Shown: piece by piece, positions 4,822 to 17,658 of the stretch
Numbering within the stretch: the first letter of the stretch is position 1
Layout of the letters: each line of letters starts with the position of its first letter
NCBI GenBank assembly: GCA_000818095.1
Contig: CP009416.1
Location: 3,208,501 to 3,272,500 of the forward strand
Direction of reading: 5' to 3'
Length of the DNA stretch: 64,000 nt
Source of the DNA: Jeotgalibacillus malaysiensis
GTDB lineage: Bacteria > Bacillota > Bacilli > Bacillales > Jeotgalibacillaceae
Position numbers and translations under genes: made by a program
Notes under the pieces: generated by a model
The model's database searches: none
Told to the model about the DNA's origin: nothing
The model's input: the letters and a program-made list of their open reading frames with translations, nothing else

Positions 4822-5930
4822 TCCACACCTCCGAGTAGCAAATAATTTTTTTGCGTTCCATCAGCAGTTGTATGAATGTCGTATCCGTGAGCCCTGATCG
4901 CTTCAGGCTCTGATCTGCGTTCTGCTGTTGAGCCCGTCAAACGCTTAATTTTCCTAACCCATAATTCATGATCATGGATCGGAAGGAATGTCACCAGATT
5001 GAGTTTCAAGTCTACTTCTTTTGTTATTTGATCTGACACAAGACAAGGCACTCCGGCACTTTGCGCTTCAATTAATGTTAGCGGCAGCCCTTCGTGTAAT
5101 GACGGAAAAACGAATAGATCAATTACCTGCAACAATTCATGTATATCCTCTCTGACGCCGAGGAAATGAACATGCTGCGCAATCCCTTTGATTCGGACTT
5201 GTTCATAAATCCGATCTTTATACTCTCCGTCCCCAATCAGAAGTAAATAAACTTTTTTATGCTGTTGCAACAATCGTTCGAATGTTTCAATCAAAAACGA
5301 ATGATTTTTTTGTTTTTGAAAACGTCCGATATGGCCAAGGATGATATCTTCTTTCTCAAACCCTAACTGCTCACGAAGTCTGTTTCTCACGATGTCAGAG
5401 TAAAAGAACTTTTGAGCTTCAATTCCATTTTTCATCAGAGCTGCTTCTGCGTGCTTTTTACCAAATAACCATTTTCCCGCTTCTTCTGAACAAGCAAAAA
5501 GGTGAGTTGCTGAAGGACCAATAAGACTGCCAGTAAACTGCTTATAAAGCTTTACCGGAACAGAACCCTCACTGCTTGTATTGTGACTATGAGCAATTCT
5601 GACCGGCACCCCAGCCTGCTTAGCAGCCGCCAGTACCTGCCCACTCATTTTATCCATGTGAGCATGTACAATTGTATAATCGTTCTCATTAAAGAACGTT
5701 TTAAGTAAAAAAAAGTACCGTACAGGTCCGGCTTCAGTTACGTAGGGAATCCGGTGAATACGGCCACCCATCTGTCTGATTTCTTCATCAAAAACACCTG
5801 CTTTAGATGTCAGGAAATCAAACTGGATTTTTGTCCGGTCGATGTTTCTATAAAGGTTCATAATCATCGTCTCGGCTCCACCACGATTCATGTTGACGAC
5901 TGCATGTAATACTCTTAACGGGCGATCCAT
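4818..5930 (-). CDS. epsF: Family 4 glycosyltransferase, EpsF-like
   Basis: The 370-residue GT-B protein begins RVLHAVVNMNRGGAETMIMNLY, a common start of EpsF-type glycosyltransferases, and has the C-terminal donor-site motif FVFPSLHEGLPLTLIEAQSAG. The ATG at 5930 overlaps the end of the preceding GT4 gene by 16 nt and has GGAGGCG upstream. It would add a hexose or derivative to the exopolysaccharide repeat unit. Sugar donor and acceptor cannot be told from sequence. The symbol is by similarity and order only. Confidence 0.85.
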   Translation of the reverse strand: MDRPLRVLHAVVNMNRGGAETMIMNLYRNIDRTKIQFDFLTSKAGVFDEEIRQMGGRIHRIPYVTEAGPVRYFFLLKTFFNENDYTIVHAHMDKMSGQVLAAAKQAGVPVRIAHSHNTSSEGSVPVKLYKQFTGSLIGPSATHLFACSEEAGKWLFGKKHAEAALMKNGIEAQKFFYSDIVRNRLREQLGFEKEDIILGHIGRFQKQKNHSFLIETFERLLQQHKKVYLLLIGDGEYKDRIYEQVRIKGIAQHVHFLGVREDIHELLQVIDLFVFPSLHEGLPLTLIEAQSAGVPCLVSDQITKEVDLKLNLVTFLPIHDHELWVRKIKRLTGSTAERRSEPEAIRAHGYDIHTTADGTQKNYLLLGGVE

Positions 5931-7975: not shown

Positions 7976-9793
7976 TTATCCTGTAATTTTAATGATTTTC
8001 TCTCTTCTATTTGCAAGCTCCAATACGAATTCCCTGATTTGATCGGCATTCATCTTGTCATAGGCTTCTGTCAGCTGATTAATTTCATCCATATAAAGCG
8101 ATGATGTGTTTCCGATATATATTTTTGGATATACCTGCTCTTGGCTCACCTCAGCTTCATTTAGCAACTCCTCGTAAAGCTTTTCACCCGGTCTCATACC
8201 AATGAACTCTATACCGATTTCTTCATATTGATAACCGGATAGTTTGATCATGTTCCGAGCCAAGTCGACAATCTTCACAGGCTCTCCCATGTCGAGTACA
8301 AAGATCTCTCCACCTTTAGCCAGAGCTCCCGCCTGAATCACAAGCCTTGATGCTTCAGGAATCGTCATAAAGTATCTAACCATATCAGGATGTGTTACTG
8401 TAATGGGTCCGCCCTGTTCAATCTGTCTTTTAAAATGAGGAATTACGCTCCCTCTACTTCCTAACACATTTCCAAACCTTACTGCTGCAAAGGTGGTCTC
8501 ACTCACTTGATTCATATACTGTACAACCATTTCAGACAGTCGTTTAGTTGCGCCCATGACGCTGGTCGGGTTCACGGCCTTATCAGTCGACACCATAATA
8601 AAGGTTTGTACACCTGCCTGATGAGCAGCCATGGCAACGTTCTTTGTACCGATCAGATTATTTTTTATCGCTTCTTCCGGATTCTGTTCCATAAGCGGTA
8701 CATGCTTGTGAGCGGCTGCATGGTAGATGATGTCCGGCTGATATTCACTCATGACTGTTACCATTTTCTTATAATCCTGGATATCTGCAATTTCTGCGTG
8801 AAGCTGAATCTCAGAGTCTTTTAAAAGAGGCTGGAGCTCCATATGAATTTTATAGATACTATTTTCACCGTGTCCGAGTAAGACAATCGTTTTCGGTTCA
8901 AAGCGGCTTACCTGACGGACAATTTCAGATCCAATTGATCCTCCTGCACCTGTGACTAAAACCGTTTTATGTTTCAGTTTTTCAGAAATTTGTTTGAGAT
9001 CCAGTTCAACTGGCTCCCGTCCAAGTAAATCCTCGACCTGAACGTCCCTTGCCTCGTGCACTGATACTTTTCCACTGACCAGATCTTCAATCATCGGAAG
9101 AATTTTTGTATCGGCATCCGTTTTAGAGCACTCCTGAAAGATTCGGTTCAATTGCTTCTTACTTAAGGAAGGAATTGCGATAATAATATTATCGATCCGA
9201 TATTCACTCACTGTTTTTTCGATATCTTCAACTCTTCCTGCAACCGGGATATCCATAATATCGAGCTGCTGCTTCCTCACATTATCATCTATAAATGCAA
9301 CTGGAAGCATGTCGCAATCTCTATTATGTTTTAACTGCCTGGCAATCATCGTCCCCGCTGACCCTGCACCGATAATGAGCGTTCTCTTTTTATTGACCCT
9401 CTGGCTGATCACCCGGTCTCTGAAAAGTCTCCAGGCAAATCTTGATCCACCGATAAAGAAAAGCATGAGCAGAAGTGTGACAGCAAGTAATCTGAAAGCA
9501 ACTTCTCCAAGTACCAGCTGTTGAGTAATCACTAACACAATCATGGACAAAAAGACTGTTTTACAGATCGCTGCAAGCTCACTGATACTCGCATACTCCC
9601 AGGCCTTTTTATACAAATGGTAGCGAAATGAAAACAATAGGTGTGATGTAACAAGTACGCCAGCCATTAAAATGATCGGAAAAGTAAAAACTTCTATACT
9701 GGCATTCACAAGGAAGCTGCTGAAAAAGATCGCCATACAAACGATCGAAGTATCAATTAAGATAAACAGGGACAACCTGTATTTATAAGACAT
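7976..9793 (-). CDS. epsC: UDP-N-acetylglucosamine 4,6-dehydratase, EpsC/PglF/CapD family
   Basis: The 605-residue protein has four N-terminal membrane helices (about residues 8-110), a CoA-binding-like Rossmann domain (TLIIGAGSAGTMIARQL near 140) and a C-terminal SDR domain starting VLVTGAGGSIGSEI near 285. STDKAVNPTSVMGATKR shows the family's Met in place of the usual SDR tyrosine. It catalyses the first step toward bacillosamine-type sugars and feeds EpsN and EpsM at the operon end. It follows the EAR RNA, a terminator and a palindromic repeat, which separate it from epsB. Confidence 0.93.
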   Translation of the reverse strand: MSYKYRLSLFILIDTSIVCMAIFFSSFLVNASIEVFTFPIILMAGVLVTSHLLFSFRYHLYKKAWEYASISELAAICKTVFLSMIVLVITQQLVLGEVAFRLLAVTLLLMLFFIGGSRFAWRLFRDRVISQRVNKKRTLIIGAGSAGTMIARQLKHNRDCDMLPVAFIDDNVRKQQLDIMDIPVAGRVEDIEKTVSEYRIDNIIIAIPSLSKKQLNRIFQECSKTDADTKILPMIEDLVSGKVSVHEARDVQVEDLLGREPVELDLKQISEKLKHKTVLVTGAGGSIGSEIVRQVSRFEPKTIVLLGHGENSIYKIHMELQPLLKDSEIQLHAEIADIQDYKKMVTVMSEYQPDIIYHAAAHKHVPLMEQNPEEAIKNNLIGTKNVAMAAHQAGVQTFIMVSTDKAVNPTSVMGATKRLSEMVVQYMNQVSETTFAAVRFGNVLGSRGSVIPHFKRQIEQGGPITVTHPDMVRYFMTIPEASRLVIQAGALAKGGEIFVLDMGEPVKIVDLARNMIKLSGYQYEEIGIEFIGMRPGEKLYEELLNEAEVSQEQVYPKIYIGNTSSLYMDEINQLTEAYDKMNADQIREFVLELANRREKIIKITG

Positions 9794-9850
9794 GATTCTC
9801 CTCCTTTCTATTAAACAAGCTTTGTTAAAGTCTTTTTATGATACTGCACA

Positions 9851-9977
9851 GCTGTTGATTGGAGTGTAAGGGGGCGACTCCTGCGGCAGGAAGGGACAGG
9901 TGAGACCGAGCATGGCGAAGCCTGCGGGCTCACTGCCCGGCCGCGGAAAGCGTCCCCCTGAAGCGGAGATCAACAGC
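9851..9977. repeat. GC-rich palindromic intergenic repeat, copy 2
   Basis: Second copy of the repeat family, in reverse orientation to copy 1. The outer arms GCTGTTGAT (9851-9859) and ATCAACAGC (9969-9977) pair perfectly. It lies in the transcribed leader of epsC, downstream of the EAR element and the terminator at 10002-10048. The arms differ from copy 3 by two base pairs that are changed on both sides. Confidence 0.88.
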
Positions 9978-10001
9978 CACATTTAACAAAACCATTACAT
10001 G

Positions 10002-10057: not shown

Positions 10058-10152
10058 AAGTGGGCATTTAACCCGCCCTCACTCCATACCAACGACGACT
10101 GGCGTCTAAGGTCTTTTAAAACCCACAGCATGAACGAGTGCCCCCATTGATA
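10058..10152 (-). ncRNA. EAR (eps-associated RNA) processive antitermination element
   Basis: The minus-strand sequence contains stretches such as GGCACTCGTTCATGCTGTGG and TTTTAAAAGACCTTAGACGC that resemble the EAR element found between epsB and epsC in Bacillus subtilis, and it has the same position here. Visible pairings are CACTC 10080-10084 with GAGTG 10136-10140, GTGGG 10060-10064 with CCCAC 10122-10126, and GACG 10094-10097 with CGTC 10103-10106, plus a GGGC/GCCC pairing at 10062-10065 and 10075-10078 that could form a pseudoknot. EAR is known to promote readthrough of distal terminators in the eps operon. Identification is from memory of the motif and synteny; an Rfam covariance search would decide. 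Confidence 0.85.
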
Positions 10153-10175
10153 ACAGTCAGGAGACATCACTGTTT

Positions 10176-10206: not shown

Positions 10207-10866
10207 TTAACGATTATTAATAATCGCACCAATGATATTTGCATGTGCTAATTCAAGGATCCGCTTCAGTTCAATCCCTCTGTCAATCAGTGTCTTGCCT
10301 CTTCTGACTACAATAATGACACCGTCTGAGATATGCGCCAGAACCCTTGTTTCTGTGTAATCAATCATATTCGGTCCATCAATAATGACTGCATCATAAT
10401 CCTGAGAAACCTTCTGGAGCAGTTGCTTCATCTGTTCCCCGCTCAACAGCTCTGCCGGATTGTATTCCCCCTGACCGCCTGTTAACACATCCAGCTTATT
10501 TAGATCATTTTTGATCAATACTTCATTTAAATGCTTTTTGCCTTTTAAAACAGCTGTTAGTCCTTCATTGTTTTCCAGCTGGAAATAATGATGGATCACT
10601 GGATTTCTTAAATTTGCATCAATCAGCAGCACTTTTTCTTTCTGCTGTGCTAATAGTGAAGCCAGATTAACAGCTGCTGTTGTTTTGCCGTCCTTCTTAG
10701 CTGATGAGGTAAATAAAACTGTTTTCACTGATTTATTTTCAGTTAAGAATTTAATATTGGTCCGCATCGTGTGAAACTGATCCGTCATGCCGGAATCCGG
10801 ATATAGGAATGTATAAAGCTTTCTCTTTTTATCTGCCGCTGTCGACTGCTTTTTTTGCAATATCAA
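10207..10866 (-). CDS. epsB: CpsD/CapB-family tyrosine-protein kinase, EpsB
   Basis: The cytoplasmic BY-kinase ATPase controls chain length and export together with its membrane activator EpsA. Motifs are DQFHTMRTNI, the Walker A segment SSAKKDGKTTAAVNLA, Walker A' LLIDANLRNP and Walker B AVIIDGPN. The C-terminus stops at IIGAIINNR without the tyrosine cluster that many BY-kinases autophosphorylate. Start chosen as TTG 10866 because AAAGGCGGTGA lies 5 nt upstream and it yields an N-terminus (MILQKKQ) like that of B. subtilis EpsB; GTG 10875 is also open. The gene overlaps epsA. Confidence 0.88.
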   Translation of the reverse strand: MILQKKQSTAADKKRKLYTFLYPDSGMTDQFHTMRTNIKFLTENKSVKTVLFTSSAKKDGKTTAAVNLASLLAQQKEKVLLIDANLRNPVIHHYFQLENNEGLTAVLKGKKHLNEVLIKNDLNKLDVLTGGQGEYNPAELLSGEQMKQLLQKVSQDYDAVIIDGPNMIDYTETRVLAHISDGVIIVVRRGKTLIDRGIELKRILELAHANIIGAIINNR

Positions 10867-11587
10867 TCGTTTCACCGCCTTTAATTGATGTTACTTTCTT
10901 TCTGGGTTGCTTTAGAACCTTTTTCTTTCTGCCGTCCGGGATTTCACCGATGACCGGGATGCCAAGATACGTTTCAATTTCTTCTTCTTTTCTGATTGCG
11001 TTATCTAAGGTATCCATAAAGAACGCAAGTCCAATTCCTAGAGCGAATCCTGCTGCTGCTGCAATATATACCAATCTGTTGCTTATAGGATTTATCGGTC
11101 CGTAATTTGGCTGTGCTTCTGTCAGTAATTGAACTGCTTCAAATGCTAATAAGCTTCGAGCCTGATTTTTAAAATTTTCTGCTGTGGCGTTTGCAATAGC
11201 TGCTGCAAGAACCGGATCCCCATCTGTTACTGACAAACTTAATACCTGTGACTCGTCCAACTGTTCTACTGTTACTTGTGAAGAAAGTGCCTGTGGAGAT
11301 CGCTCAATTCCTAAATCTGCGGCCACTTGTTCCATTACTGTGGGATCCTTCATCATGACCATTAATGTTTTCATCGATACGTCAGTAGATGCTGTGGATG
11401 TAATGATTACCCTTGTAGAAGTCTGATAAAGTGGTGAATAAGTCATATTATTGTAGTAATACGCCAGGCCTCCAAATGCAACTGCGAGAAGAATGATCAG
11501 GATCACCCTCTTTTTAATAACCTGAATATATTCCATCAGGTTAATATCCCGGGACCCTGGAGTGTAAGAGCTTTTATGATTCAACAT
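10829..11587 (-). CDS. epsA: Wzz-like chain-length modulator / kinase activator, EpsA
   Basis: This 252-residue protein has a Wzz N-terminal domain with one membrane helix near residues 30-45 and a second near residues 175-190 after the PINPISNRLVYIAAAAG stretch, with a short cytoplasmic C-terminal tail containing IETYLGIPVIGEIP. It should activate EpsB and help set polymer length. ATG 11587 is preceded by GGAAGG at 5 nt and is preferred over GTG 11593. Two SinR-like palindromes lie 23 and 127 nt upstream. It overlaps epsB by 38 nt. Confidence 0.9.
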   Translation of the reverse strand: MLNHKSSYTPGSRDINLMEYIQVIKKRVILIILLAVAFGGLAYYYNNMTYSPLYQTSTRVIITSTASTDVSMKTLMVMMKDPTVMEQVAADLGIERSPQALSSQVTVEQLDESQVLSLSVTDGDPVLAAAIANATAENFKNQARSLLAFEAVQLLTEAQPNYGPINPISNRLVYIAAAAGFALGIGLAFFMDTLDNAIRKEEEIETYLGIPVIGEIPDGRKKKVLKQPRKKVTSIKGGETIDIAKKAVDSGR

Positions 11588-11609
11588 TATCACCTTCCAA
11601 TCTTAGGTC

Positions 11610-11625
11610 ATTCTTTATAAAGAAC
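11610..11625. promoter_or_regulatory. SinR-like operator upstream of epsA
   Basis: The minus strand reads GTTCTTTATAAAGAAT, matching the SinR half-site GTTCTYT on one strand fully and 15 of 16 bases of the perfect palindrome 103 bp away. It ends 22 nt before the epsA start, where a repressor would block transcription. I did not find a convincing -35/-10 pair between the two operators; the site itself contains TATAAA. Confidence 0.65.
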
Positions 11626-11710: not shown

Positions 11711-12340
11711 TTAGTTCTTTATAAAGAACATGTCAATACGTTTTTTCAATTCTCTTATTTTTAAACCTGGCGTCCATTTTATTCTAAATTTTTTGTAACA
11801 AAGATATAAAAAGTATAAATAGATCTTCATGTAGTAAATATATTTCTTTTTTTGTGCTACCTCTTTAATTGGAAAATATGCTGGTATGAGCGCAGAATTC
11901 TTATGGCGCCAAACTGGACCGACTTTTTTTAAGTCATTGTCACAAAATCGCTTCAAACTGATAAAGAAATTCTTTTCAATTAAGCCTATATATGCATCAG
12001 GCAAATTATTTTTGTAGTGATGCCTAATTGTTTTGAAGATTAGTTTCATATTCCCTTTTTTTCTATACTCTTTTAATAGTGTGAGGCGGTCAATTTCCCA
12101 AATATCCCCATACTCGAAATTGATTGAGTGATATGTAGTTTTTAATTTTTTTTGAGGAATTATAGCACAGGGAATGAATTCTATTATGCCGATAATTTTT
12201 TTATGAGATGGATGCAATATGAAGTACCTAATAGATTCTTCATAATACGGATCATCTATCCAGCACCCTTCTATTGTAGTTTCTGTCCAAATTTCTCTGA
12301 ACCTGATTTCTTCTTCCGAAGTGGTGACAAGCTGAAACAT
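11711..12340 (-). CDS. AHL-synthase/FeeM-like GNAT acyltransferase (putative)
   Basis: The 209-residue protein is not a named family member I can fix. Its layout matches AHL-synthase and N-acyl-amino-acid-synthase (FeeM-like) GNAT folds: FREIWTE near residue 14, WIDDPYYEESIRYFIL at 27-42, GIIEFIPC at 51-58, then EIDRLTLLKEYRKKGNMKLIF near 81-101, where the E-R pair and R-x-x-G resemble the acyl carrier/CoA binding region, and a late VGPVWRHKNSALIPAYFPI. The C-terminal 50 residues are strongly basic. The ATG follows AAAGGGGTG. It lies 65 nt after a 43-codon peptide gene and its last codons contain a perfect SinR-like operator. It may acylate the peptide or make a small acylated signal; both are inference. 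Confidence 0.6.
   Translation of the reverse strand: MFQLVTTSEEEIRFREIWTETTIEGCWIDDPYYEESIRYFILHPSHKKIIGIIEFIPCAIIPQKKLKTTYHSINFEYGDIWEIDRLTLLKEYRKKGNMKLIFKTIRHHYKNNLPDAYIGLIEKNFFISLKRFCDNDLKKVGPVWRHKNSALIPAYFPIKEVAQKKKYIYYMKIYLYFLYLCYKKFRIKWTPGLKIRELKKRIDMFFIKN
11714..11729. promoter_or_regulatory. Perfect SinR-like palindrome overlapping the end of the GNAT gene
   Basis: GTTCTTTATAAAGAAC is a perfect 16-bp palindrome made of two GTTCTTT half-sites, the SinR recognition core. It also encodes the last residues (Phe-Phe-Ile-Lys-Asn) of the upstream gene and abuts its stop codon. Its centre is 103 bp (about ten helical turns) from the centre of the second site at 11610-11625, a geometry that would allow looping. 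Confidence 0.72.
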
Positions 12341-12405: not shown

Positions 12406-12537
12406 TTACGATGTGCCACTGATGTCATCTTCACAGTCTTCGTCTTTCCATCCTCCGCCATGATCACTACCAGGAGACTTCATTGTTAAAGCTATTTCGA
12501 GGCAGTATAACGTAGGCTTAGACCATTCTTGTCGCAT
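12406..12537 (-). CDS. Small peptide (43 aa) with lasso-precursor-like leader
   Basis: An ATG at 12537 with a very strong GGGGGAGGAG binding site opens a 43-codon frame ending in TAA at 12406. It starts with EWSKPTLYCLEIALTM (residues 4-19), which resembles the leader pattern (W/Y)-x-x-P-x-L...T-M of paeninodin-type lasso peptides, followed by KSPG and a distinct acidic, glycine-rich tail with GGGWKDEDCEDD (27-38). The tail lacks the Gly/Ala1 and Asp/Glu at position 7-9 needed for a lasso ring, and no lasso synthetase or protease genes are nearby. The gene has its own sigma-A-like promoter with a SinR-like operator over the start site. It is followed by a hairpin and an AHL-synthase-like acyltransferase. 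Likely a ribosomal peptide or signal; function unknown. Confidence 0.68.
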   Translation of the reverse strand: MRQEWSKPTLYCLEIALTMKSPGSDHGGGWKDEDCEDDISGTS

Positions 12538-12561: not shown

Positions 12562-12577
12562 GTTCTACATAAAGAAC
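12562..12577. promoter_or_regulatory. SinR-like operator at the peptide gene promoter
   Basis: The minus strand reads GTTCTTTATGTAGAAC, 14 of 16 bases of the perfect palindrome at 11714. It covers about +1 to +17 of the predicted transcript from the promoter at 12585-12613, a classical repressor position, and precedes the ribosome binding site. Confidence 0.62.
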
Positions 12578-12584
12578 AAAAAGA

Positions 12585-12613
12585 ATTTAACATAACTTTC
12601 AATCTACTGTCAA
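12585..12613 (-). promoter_or_regulatory. Sigma-A-type promoter of the peptide/GNAT/eps unit
   Basis: On the minus strand a perfect -35 TTGACA (12608-12613) is separated by 17 nt from TTAAAT (12585-12590), and TG directly precedes the -10. The predicted start lies next to the SinR-like operator. No clear terminator was seen between the GNAT gene and epsA, so this promoter could also drive the eps genes. Confidence 0.65.
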
Positions 12614-12723: not shown

Positions 12724-14847
12724 TTAAGGATTCCATTCTCTAAGTTTTGGGACCCGTTTATTTCTTGTATCTTCAGATGACTGAATTTTATCAGTTGGCT
12801 TTAATAAAGTTTTAGCATTATATACATTTAAATTTACTAAGGAATAAACTGGTGCATCTATACCTGAATTGGTTGTATCAATACCTATATTAACCCCTGA
12901 ATTAGGATTTCCATAAACATCTACATCTTTAATTGATACTTGATTAATTTCTGATGCCTTTTGTTCACCATATGGTCCAAACTTCATAATTGGTGTTGAT
13001 ATTTGATTAGTTACTGCCTGTATTTTTGAGTTATTTATTTTAAATGAATTTGTATCCTTAACAAAAATACCAGCTCCATAGCCTACATTACCAATTAAAT
13101 TAAAATTCATCCGACTCATTTCAACTGTGGCTTGATTACTTGTGTTCAATAGAGATTCTTTCGCATTTACAGTACAATTATCTATTGTTATAGGTACAGA
13201 ATGATTGATGTTTAGAGAGCTGTTTATACTACAGTTTTGATACTTACCTCCAGGAAGAGTTAAACCTTTTAACTCCTCAGTAGTAACTTTTGAATATTGA
13301 TTATCAACATTTCCTTTACCTGTTATATAAGTTTTTTCACCTTTTAACGTTAAGTTACTAATATTTACTGGATTAGAGCCAATATAGAAAGGTGAATTCA
13401 CAACTTCAAGCTCATCAATTTTTACTGTATGAGGCTTTTTGTTATTTAGACTAATGTTACCTCCTTTAACTAAAGTGTTTATCAAGCTAATGTTTTCTCC
13501 ACTTAAATTAATAGTAGAACCTGATAAATTATTATTTTTTAAGTCGATATTTTCTCCTAAAATTGTAATACCTGCAGTTTTAAATGTATTGCCTTCTATT
13601 AAAGCTTCACTAAAAGGTGGAGAAACAGCAAGACCTATTGATTTTGACTCTAATCGATTATTTACTACTTCAGCATTATAACCATCGAATAAAATAATGT
13701 CGTATCCATGGTTATTATGAAAATAATTGGATTCGATCCGGTTATTTTTATTTACAAAAAAGCCACCTTCTAGGTCTATTCCACTTTGGGGAGCAGTTCC
13801 TTTCACATGGTGGATTTCATTGTTTTTAACAAGAACGTTTTCTCCACCTACTATGCTGATGCCCTGTCTTCTGCTATAACCTAAATTTGAATTTGTAATT
13901 CTAATATTTTTACTAGTGTTTACATACATTGGGTTAATGCTTACCTTAGATGTATCAGATGCTCCAAATTCAGCACGATAATATTGCGCATTTTTTGGAG
14001 GCTTAACCTCTCCCCAGTAAAATTTAAGATTCTCCTGTTTAGAGATATGCTTTTTATTTTGATCATAATAATGAATATTGAATCGATTACTTTTTAAATT
14101 TTGAGGTAACCAGAAGTAAAGGCTAAATTCATTAAGCTTCTGATCAATTGAAATAAAGGTTGATCTGATTTTTTCCTCAGAATTTATTGGACCACCGGAT
14201 GCACTTAAACCGCCCTGCTCAAGGTCTTTTTCTTTAATATAATAACCTTTTTCAGTCGCTCCACCTATTTCAACGGAATCTCCTGCAAAATCTTGAATTT
14301 TCATGTCATTAATTATAATGTTTTGTGACCCTTTAATACTAATGCCGTTACCCCATTCATGAGTTCCGCTCGTAGCTTCTCCTACTTGAGAATAATCGTG
14401 AGTTAGTCGATCCCCTTTTAACGTACCGCCTTCCACAATCACATTCTCTAAATCACTCAAATAAAGAACACTATACATTTCCCAACCATTGGTCTCTTTC
14501 TCTAATATTACATCATCATCTAGGGATAGCTTCATATTACTAACCATCTTTATATGGTTATTAGGGCTATTCCATTTCTCGCCCTTCGCAATCAAATAAT
14601 GTCCATCCTCAACCCGGAAAGTTGTATACCCTTGCTCACCAGCCCATTTAAGCGCCTGGTTCCATCCAGCTGTTGTTTCTACAGGGTTGGATGCATCGTC
14701 GCTGATTCCCCAGCGTTTTTTTTCTTGATCTGTTAAGACATAAACCTTTTCCTGAATAGAAGATGTAATACCTTCTGCAGAAACAATAGTTGGAAGCATT
14801 GCAACAATTGTGAATGCCAATAGTGTAAAAAACAAATGTTTTTTCAT
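12724..14847 (-). CDS. Secreted right-handed parallel beta-helix protein
   Basis: The 707-residue protein has a clear signal peptide (MKKHLFFTLLAFTIVAMLPTIVSAEG, cut near residue 24 after SA; given here as a description of its first 26 residues in two parts: MKKHLFFTLLAF and TIVAMLPTIVSAEG). The rest is rich in short Asn/Ile/Gly repeats such as NIIINDMKIQDFAG, VLVKNNEIHHVKG and RIESNYFHNNHGYDIILFDG, typical of pectate-lyase-like beta-helices that bind or cleave polysaccharide. The ATG at 14847 has AAGGAG upstream; an in-frame ATG at 14889 lacks one. Its place beside the eps locus suggests action on exopolysaccharide or anchoring in the matrix. Catalytic residues could not be assigned. Confidence 0.75.
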   Translation of the reverse strand: MKKHLFFTLLAFTIVAMLPTIVSAEGITSSIQEKVYVLTDQEKKRWGISDDASNPVETTAGWNQALKWAGEQGYTTFRVEDGHYLIAKGEKWNSPNNHIKMVSNMKLSLDDDVILEKETNGWEMYSVLYLSDLENVIVEGGTLKGDRLTHDYSQVGEATSGTHEWGNGISIKGSQNIIINDMKIQDFAGDSVEIGGATEKGYYIKEKDLEQGGLSASGGPINSEEKIRSTFISIDQKLNEFSLYFWLPQNLKSNRFNIHYYDQNKKHISKQENLKFYWGEVKPPKNAQYYRAEFGASDTSKVSINPMYVNTSKNIRITNSNLGYSRRQGISIVGGENVLVKNNEIHHVKGTAPQSGIDLEGGFFVNKNNRIESNYFHNNHGYDIILFDGYNAEVVNNRLESKSIGLAVSPPFSEALIEGNTFKTAGITILGENIDLKNNNLSGSTINLSGENISLINTLVKGGNISLNNKKPHTVKIDELEVVNSPFYIGSNPVNISNLTLKGEKTYITGKGNVDNQYSKVTTEELKGLTLPGGKYQNCSINSSLNINHSVPITIDNCTVNAKESLLNTSNQATVEMSRMNFNLIGNVGYGAGIFVKDTNSFKINNSKIQAVTNQISTPIMKFGPYGEQKASEINQVSIKDVDVYGNPNSGVNIGIDTTNSGIDAPVYSLVNLNVYNAKTLLKPTDKIQSSEDTRNKRVPKLREWNP

Positions 14848-15223
14848 TGTTAAAGCTCCTTCGTAATATTTCACATGACAGCGCAACAAATGTAACCCAT
14901 TTCACATTACCGAAAATACATATGTAAATAAAGGTTATAAATACACATTTTTTCATAATAAAAATAGTTATTTGTTATTATAAAATAACCTTTAATATGT
15001 AATTTAAAGTGATTAATTAATCAATAATTATATCTTTATAATTAAACCCATCTATTTATTACTCTGAATTCAAAATAGTTTTCTGATAGAAAATAAAAAA
15101 TGCTATTTATCATGATTATTTGTCTTTTTTTATTTCGTTTTGTTCTTCATAATGAATTTTAAACATTATCTCAAGAAAATTAGTCCTAACAACTATTATC
15201 TCCATTTTTTAATCAGTCCATAC
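14848..15223. other. AT-rich intergenic region, no gene seen
   Basis: About 375 nt of strongly AT-rich DNA upstream of the beta-helix gene. It should hold that gene's promoter, but I could not choose a convincing -35/-10 pair. GTTCTTCATAATGAAT at 15142-15157 weakly resembles the SinR-like palindrome. No open reading frame with a ribosome binding site was found. Confidence 0.5.
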
Positions 15224-17041: not shown

Positions 17042-17185
17042 TTAAAAAATCCTCCCTGTTTGTTTCGTTCTACGTAATATTCTACTAAATGTACCAATAA
17101 TCCTTTATTTTATTATTTAAATAGGGCATATTTCACTTTCTTATTAAGTTTGTTATTTATTAATATCCATATTAGTTTTTGCACA

Positions 17186-17312
17186 GCAGGTGATTGAAGT
17201 GGAAGGGGGCGACTCCTGCGGCAGGAAGGGACGTGTGAGACCGAGCATGGCGAAGCCTGCGGGCTCACCGCCCGGCCGCGGAAAGCGTCCCCCTGAAACG
17301 GAAATCACCTGC
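17186..17312. repeat. GC-rich palindromic intergenic repeat, copy 3
   Basis: Very similar to copy 2 internally, but the outer 10-bp arms are GCAGGTGATT (17186-17195) and AATCACCTGC (17303-17312), a perfect inverted pair with a different sequence from copy 2. It lies between the S9 peptidase and the ribU promoter. Confidence 0.9.
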
Positions 17313-17367: not shown

Positions 17368-17391
17368 AAAATCCTAAACTAAATATCGTTC

Positions 17392-17520
17392 CATCTTCAG
17401 GGCAGGGTGAAATTCCCGACCGGCGGTAAATGTAAGAGTGAGCCCGCGAGCGAATAGGGAGCTATTTGCTGACTCCGTGAGAACCGGAGGCCGACAGTAT
17501 AGTCTGGATGGGAGAAGATG
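17392..17520 (+). promoter_or_regulatory. FMN riboswitch (RFN element)
   Basis: Contains the conserved blocks AGGGCAGGGTGAAATTCCCG, ACCGGCGGTA, GAGAACCGGAGGCC and AGTCTGGATGGGAG, closed by CATCTTC (17392-17398) pairing with GAAGATG (17514-17520). It senses FMN and lowers riboflavin uptake or synthesis. About 140 nt of expression platform follows before ribU, including CCCTGC 17576-17581 paired with GCAGGG 17598-17603 and a short T-rich stretch, which may be the terminator. Confidence 0.97.
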
Positions 17521-17658
17521 GAGGCAAGAATAAGGGATTTGCGTATAGCTGACCCTTTATTTCGTGCTGAATTCTCCCTGCTGATTGCGCCGAATCTGCA
17601 GGGTTTATTTGTGTACACTTGCCGAAACTTCTGTGTGGAACGAGGACAGGAGCTACTC

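Follow-up and report, generated by a model that had tools for sequence, protein, structure and literature searches.

The window, the whole 64,000-nucleotide stretch of Jeotgalibacillus malaysiensis DNA that was analysed, carries a small peptide gene and a GNAT gene at the head of an eps operon, the arrangement first noticed in a preliminary description of this DNA. Read along the minus strand in the order of transcription, the region begins with a right-handed beta-helix protein (12724..14889, PF13229) and a terminator-like hairpin (12702-12677), followed by a sigma-70-type promoter-like site (12584..12613, consensus match) and a SinR-type palindrome (12562..12577, exact, no strand assigned). 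The promoter-like match is weak, such sites numbering 18 in the region and 21.3 in shuffles. Next come the peptide gene (12406..12537), with a GGAGG ribosome site before it, and the GNAT gene (11711..12340), a real gene of 209 aa that starts with ATG and is preceded by a ribosome-site-like stretch, GGGGTGA. An exact palindrome, GTTCTTTATAAAGAAC (11714..11729), overlaps the 3' end of the GNAT gene and lies between it and epsA, and another with one mismatch (11610..11625) stands just upstream of epsA. The operon continues with an epsA-like Wzz chain-length protein (cluster 4; 10829..11593, PF02706), an epsB-like AAA_31 ATPase (10207..10875, profile match), the epsC (EAR) antitermination RNA (10061..10172, RF01735, 105.1 bits) and an epsC-like gene (cluster 7; 7976..9793).

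The SinR-like palindrome, GTTCTNNNTAAAGAAC, is found exactly at 5682-5697, 11714-11729 and 12562-12577. With up to two mismatches it gives 12 matches at 8 places compared with 2.41 expected, and none of 100 shuffles scored as high. We take GTTCTYT to be the SinR box; a literature search for this box found nothing. The window genome has two neighbouring frames with SinI/SinR domains (112 and 52 aa; G000:C1:1013.5k), which, with the exact palindromes, are consistent with the SinR-like control that had been suggested for the pair.

For comparison with other genomes, 53 stretches fit the pattern of a GNAT locus and 40 were confirmed as named loci, some of them from Cohnella. An eps head is the setting of the GNAT in 12 of these, with further genes intervening in L067. 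Eight loci place it in a lasso cluster where the cyclase is also in view, one (L044) with a kinase-B1-B2-ABC set lacking a cyclase, seven with an ABC exporter and beta-helix genes, and the remaining 12 elsewhere. A SinR-type palindrome follows the GNAT within 350 bases in 8 of the 12 eps loci. Within 300 bases upstream of the peptide, one is present in 4 of the 12 eps loci and in 4 of the 28 others (L047, L064, L066 and L073, where L064 and L066 are near copies), when base shuffles of the upstream stretch led us to expect 0.02 and 0.035 matches, respectively; at the four loci where the script had found no peptide a proxy start was used, and the stretch taken for L046 and L070 is displaced by stray frames upstream. 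As motif evidence, the palindromes point to matrix co-regulation even for pairs that lie away from eps. Beta-helix proteins also recur near the peptide-GNAT pair, in the window (12724-14889) and in L039, L044, L045, L046, L056, L060, L072 and L074. Elsewhere in the window, two similar intergenic stretches (9836-9982 and 17113-17308), whose translations share GRFPRPG.EPAGFAMLGLT..PFLPQESPP, are likely a dispersed repeat, and an FMN riboswitch (RF00050, 125.5 bits) occupies 17389-17523.

The peptide gene encodes a 43-aa RiPP precursor, MRQEWSKPTLYCLEIALTM-KSPGSDHGGGWKDEDCEDDISGTS, with a paeninodin-type leader (WSKPTLYCLEIALTM) of the pattern WxxPxL..TM and a core with Lys as its first residue and Ser as its last. 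It has no typical lasso core and, by reading, no Asp or Glu at core positions 7-9. Its score against NF033524, the paeninodin leader model, is 20.5-21.1 bits, below the cut-off of 27 bits that most GNAT-paired relatives among the matches listed exceed (41.7 bits in G003 and up to 50.9 bits in G096; the extra peptide of G330 is below). NF033524 was the sole NCBIfam match for the three peptides scanned, for which no Pfam match and, in NCBIfam and Pfam, no NHLP or Nif11 leader was found. The codon for Lys20 (12478..12480, minus strand) specifies core position 1, directly after T-M; a fixed-position test on relatives, given below, suggests this residue as the site of acylation.

Pairing with such a peptide is the rule among the named loci: a peptide lies near the GNAT in 38 of the 40 named loci (36 by script, L051 and L055 by reading), L042 and L063 having a GNAT and no peptide that we could find. 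Lys directly follows T[MLF] in all 38 (33 TMK, 4 TLK and 1 TFK), and the last residue is Ser in all 39 peptides counted, among them a second L075 peptide (TFF). The gene order is reversed in L046, where the peptide gene is downstream of the GNAT. GNAT-paired cores are composed of 21.6% Pro, 18.5% Gly and 13.6% Asp. Among the distant homologues L031, L032 and L034-L038, the peptide pattern found no such peptide. At L075:9593-9703, L029:1374-1484 and L028:1395-1499 the GNAT is followed by another small precursor, whose leader is short and whose core contains Cys (..TFFRCLPPLSVG.. and ..TYTHCLTPLS..) and has no Lys at position 1.

The link between Lys and the GNAT holds when precursors are gathered without regard to the GNAT. 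In 397 genomes of the order, NF033524 matches were listed at 140 sites spread over 89 genomes, of which 139 exceed the cut-off; the window and G002 peptides score too low to be among them. Counting from the leader Trp, the 15th following residue was taken as core position 1, and models derived from the named loci were used to look for a GNAT or a lasso cyclase no more than 1.5 kb away. Lys occupies this position in 21 of 23 GNAT-adjacent precursors and in none of 113 cyclase-adjacent ones, which carry Ala (61), Asn (21), Leu (18), Gly (10), Ser (2) or Trp (1). The two GNAT-adjacent precursors without Lys (Phe and Thr) are additional small peptides of G250 and G330, genomes that also have a Lys peptide. 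No lasso cyclase was found within 1.5 kb of the 23, and Asp or Glu at core positions 7-9, present in 98 of the 113 cyclase-adjacent precursors, occurs in only 3 of the 23. Acylation of the peptide itself, which the preliminary description had offered as its second possibility, is on this evidence the better supported of its two proposals.

Four precursors had neither gene within 1.5 kb, with Lys (G134), Asn (G127 and G060) or Gly (G208) at position 1. G134 is the exception to the association: its Lys-type precursor belongs to a lasso cluster and has a cyclase-like frame some 2.3 kb away, the stretch has frames resembling a cyclase, kinase, B1 and ABC and no GNAT, and no GNAT match was found in the genome. 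The sequences compared are related and several named loci and order genomes are the same strains; the counts are therefore not independent, and we give no p-value. The paeninodin-leader peptides of G208 (L177) and G060 (L188), whose core after TM reads [GN]NGRG.. and which have no GNAT or cyclase closer than 1.5 kb, are perhaps a further branch.

The protein encoded at 11711..12340 is a FeeM/AHL-synthase-like GNAT and a candidate peptide acyltransferase. Its structure model (pLDDT 84.7, pTM 0.75) matches GNATs in Foldseek, and among the best 50 matches listed the top TMq values belong to BjaI (0.56), FeeM (0.56) and TofI (0.55), with MesI at 0.48. For the GNAT of L044, a typical member (model pLDDT 87.6), the corresponding values among its best 50 are 0.56-0.59 for FeeM, 0.57-0.58 for BjaI and 0.56 for both TofI and MesI. 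FeeM is thus among the closest folds by TM-score for the two models (TMq 0.56-0.59, 50 matches listed each), and the AHL-synthase/FeeM type of fold first recognised from the residue layout is upheld. In both lists of 50, the smallest Foldseek E-values go to plain acetyltransferases.

Sequence profiles place the protein less sharply. The window GNAT has weak matches to PF00583 (E 0.1) and to the unrelated PH_12 (E 0.17), and PF21926 (FeeM) is absent from its matches at E<=10. Across 41 family members, Acetyltransf_5 is matched by 36, Acetyltransf_1 by 31 and FeeM by 22 at E<=1 (best FeeM E 2e-5). The members with a listed FeeM score reach 15.8 (L004), 18.0 (L007), 17.8 (L131) and 20.5 bits (L044), under the curated FeeM cut-off of 27 bits. 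PF00765 (AHL synthase) is not among the 23 families that the 41 members match at E<=1. A PDB sequence search found nothing relevant with the window GNAT and nothing with the family profile. Identity as an antibiotic or protein acetyltransferase was considered and rejected, there being no curated match and AAC(6') models matching weakly in 1-2 of the 41 members.

The GNAT gene is conserved, with homologues in 7 of the genus's 12 genomes. Across the order, homologues occur in 53 of 397 genomes at E<=0.001, 22 of them close (E<=1e-60). In a phylum sample of 398 genomes the family profile at E<=1e-20 matches only the window genome, although Cohnella GNAT loci exist in our separate collection. No copies were found on plasmids, phages or viral contigs. 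Several positions are kept in all 41 aligned rows (V5, F14, W18, W27, R38, G51, E54, W81-E82-I83-D84, H108, Y117 and L151), and the window GNAT retains W81-E82-I83-D84 and the other invariant columns.

Beyond these columns the window protein is the most divergent member of the family. Its mean identity to 11 eps relatives is 30.1%, compared with 53.7% among those relatives; for the neighbouring eps proteins the two figures are 45.9% and 55.5% (Wzz), 48.5% and 59.5% (EpsB), and 63.8% and 69.8% (EpsC). It keeps 22 of 34 near-invariant columns where, by a leave-one-out count, other members keep at least 82%. Its tree branch length is 7.84, and the four context groups need 13 changes on the tree; the window row is too long to place, so we propose no order of moves between contexts. 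In the congener G002 the GNAT is in pieces with stops and the peptide is without T-x-K; the broken GNATs of G002 and G127 both adjoin precursors without T-x-K, which speaks for the acylation model proposed below. As the window GNAT is an outlier and the G002 copy is broken, the window copy may be decaying or changed, and the mechanism proposed below is better supported for the GNAT family than for the window copy.

The genomes that carry the GNAT also carry lasso machinery. PF13471, the lasso B2 leader-protease family, is present in 39 of the 40 named GNAT genomes compared with 92 of 397 order genomes over the cut-off, and in 21 of the 22 close-GNAT genomes of the order (the exception is G013); within the genus, the 7 of 12 genomes with the GNAT (broken in G002) are also those with PF13471. 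A cyclase homologue (E<=1e-30) occurs in 20 of 21 tested GNAT genomes of the 40, one of them partial. In the L070 genome, where the pair is present, neither PF13471 nor a cyclase was found. The window genome has a lasso cluster with an Asn-synthase-type cyclase, precursor, HprK kinase, PqqD-type B1, B2, NTP_transf_5 and ABC genes, then an LPP-type set, both after polysaccharide genes on the same strand. These sets lie about 29-40 kb from the GNAT, outside the window, and the lasso cluster ends the polysaccharide cluster. The strong PF13471 match of this genome sits with the cyclase, about 29-30 kb from the GNAT; in the L044 genome the only PF13471 match adjoins the GNAT and the cyclase is about 40 kb off. 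From these placements, one B1/B2 set apparently serves both precursors, and the Lys precursor thus appears to share B1/B2 with the lasso precursor.

Lasso clusters also stand next to glycosyltransferases in G002, G003, G005, G007, G008, G010, G157, G216, G312 and G335, and in G005 the GNAT is 190 kb from the lasso cluster beside the glycosyltransferases. Outside the window, the window genome has an LPP-type precursor, MKMAYVAPEVKEHQMIQFETAQSWN.. (L117:4546-4749), which adjoins a second PqqD domain, ABC and NTP-transferase-like genes; in this genome a single polysaccharide cluster seems to be accompanied by three types of RiPP.

We propose a model where the peptide is the precursor of an acylated linear RiPP, the GNAT acylates core Lys1 and lasso leader processing is shared, and we consider it probable. 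The leader belongs to the class that paeninodin RREs (B1) bind, and the B2 protease would cut it after T(-2)-M(-1). The GNAT would move an acyl group to core Lys1, either to its side chain or to the alpha-amine freed by leader removal. A fatty acyl group is more likely than acetyl, because the modelled GNAT fold resembles FeeM and AHL synthases. The product would be linear and acylated, with a high content of Pro, Gly and Asp, and would be made along with the matrix polysaccharide under SinR-type control, with SinR presumably binding the palindromes and the peptide perhaps exported to serve in the matrix. The leader type, the association of Lys with the GNAT, the co-occurrence with the B2 family, the linkage and the operator-like motifs are seen in the sequences, from which the acylation, its site and chain length, the use of B1/B2, SinR binding, export and a matrix role are inferred. 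Such a model predicts a third RiPP branch in Bacilli polysaccharide loci, beside lasso peptides and LPPs, for which the enzyme, the precursor and the acceptor residue are all named. If it is true, GNAT modification of RiPPs would come to include peptides that have lasso-type leaders and are not true lassos, the biofilm matrix regulon would gain a concrete chemical link to RiPPs, and the product would be a gene-encoded lipopeptide of a kind for which we found no description in the literature.

Other readings of the same locus deserve weight. The GNAT might make a free signal (an N-acyl amino acid or AHL), akin to the signal suggested in the preliminary description, with the peptide a mere neighbour such as a sensor ligand or regulator. 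The fold matches to FeeM, BjaI, TofI and MesI and the weak FeeM profile matches in 22 of 41 members agree with this, yet the pairing with one RiPP precursor type in 38 of 40 loci and the association of Lys with the GNAT would be unexpected for a signal synthase, PF00765 is unmatched in all 41 members at E<=1 and the FeeM scores listed stay under the cut-off; we consider it quite improbable, and a diffusible AHL or acyl amino acid signal is unsupported by profiles or context. Were the GNAT instead merely to acetylate the peptide Lys, as a processing or protection mark with no lipidation, the difference from the acylated RiPP proposed here would be one of acyl length. AlbT, the acetyltransferase of albusnodin, gives a precedent in the available text of PMC9266682, and plain acetyltransferases have the smallest Foldseek E-values; the top TM-scores among the matches listed belong to the acyl-chain transferases FeeM and BjaI, which may argue for a longer chain; we regard simple acetylation as rather unlikely.

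A true lasso peptide, which the far-end cyclase would close in trans and the GNAT would decorate, is very improbable. The leader is of the same type and a cyclase is present in the window genome, as in nearly all tested GNAT genomes, but 29 of the 39 GNAT-paired peptides of the named loci are without Asp or Glu at core positions 7-9 (10 have one), when most cyclase-adjacent precursors carry such a residue and none of those carries Lys at position 1. As for the window pair itself, its long branch, its loss of near-invariant columns and the broken G002 copy would suit a decaying, functionless remnant of a system that works in relatives. The open 209-aa frame, the confident fold model and the invariant columns speak against decay, as do the TMK and terminal Ser of the precursor and the exact palindromes. 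We regard a remnant as somewhat unlikely, and it would be compatible with an acylated linear RiPP for the family. One can also imagine, as an improbable reading, a phospholipid-like peptide in which a Pro/Gly/Asp linker joins Lys1, acylated by the GNAT, to a final Ser that receives a phosphate or phospho-sugar through the HprK kinase and NTP transferase of the lasso cluster. Once exported, it would serve the operon's exopolysaccharide as a membrane anchor, primer or surfactant; lasso and LPP peptides would then be partner products of one matrix-linked RiPP island.

The acylated linear RiPP that we favour has relatives among known systems. The founding paper on selidamides reportedly appeared in PNAS in 2022. 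In selidamides and nostolysamides a GNAT likewise lies beside a RiPP precursor; according to the available text, core Lys1 is acylated by a GNAT in nostolysamide (PMC13060382), and further selidamide precedents are in PMC9505594. The selidamide hallmark of a GNAT beside a precursor with a conserved Lys or Orn acceptor is found here, with Lys at core position 1 in 38 of the 38 named loci that have a peptide. Leaders in those systems are of the NHLP or Nif11 type, a lanthionine synthetase is often present and NpuN is a tandem GNAT; the family described here is from Bacillota and pairs one FeeM-like GNAT with a leader of paeninodin type. With paeninodin lasso peptides it shares the leader motif, T(-2), the terminal Ser and, in the same genomes, the B1, B2, HprK kinase, NTP transferase and ABC genes; unlike in those clusters, the cyclase is not beside the precursor, the core is Lys-first and most cores lack a ring acid. 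Leader recognition by B2 involves the Thr at position -2, and AlbT acetylates a conserved Lys of albusnodin, as stated in the available text of PMC10368454 and PMC9266682, respectively (see also PMC11705953). Albusnodin thus resembles our proposal in coupling an acetyltransferase to a conserved Lys of a lasso-type precursor, and by the same text (PMC9266682) differs in that Lys10 of a true lasso receives acetyl, in Streptomyces.

Lasso and LPP clusters within Bacilli polysaccharide loci were described by Popov et al. 2026 (PMC13381572), whose available text calls their roles unknown. LPPs are, like the proposed product, linear RiPPs beside lasso clusters in polysaccharide loci; they have a YxxPxVLxHQxIxFET leader and a cut by a SipW-like peptidase, in place of WxxPxL..TM, and the words GNAT, acyltransferase, acetyltransferase, lipid and fatty are absent from the main text of PMC13381572. 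Among the matches listed in the paeninodin, lasso, selidamide, GNAT-RiPP and AHL-Bacillus literature, mostly non-subscription, we found no title or abstract opening on the GNAT-peptide pair. The presence of lasso and LPP peptides in polysaccharide loci is already published, and the GNAT branch is neither in the main text of PMC13381572 nor among what our literature search found.

The enzyme itself resembles FeeM, BjaI, TofI and MesI in fold (TMq 0.55-0.59, and 0.48 to MesI for the window model). It differs from FeeM and the AHL synthases in that its proposed substrate is a peptide, its FeeM scores are under the cut-off and PF00765 is unmatched. Another likeness is to TIGR03694, the PEP-CTERM/exosortase-associated acyltransferase family, which 5 of the 41 GNAT members match (best E 8.9e-6). 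TIGR03694 is part of the Gram-negative exosortase system, and we know of no paeninodin peptide in TIGR03694 systems; the idea of peptide acylation might extend to this family. Finally, a distant GNAT subfamily lies directly before a membrane protein with a GGDEF domain (L036:2-1459 and L037:2059-3600, with L038 alike by reading), where a link between an acyl product and c-di-GMP is possible.
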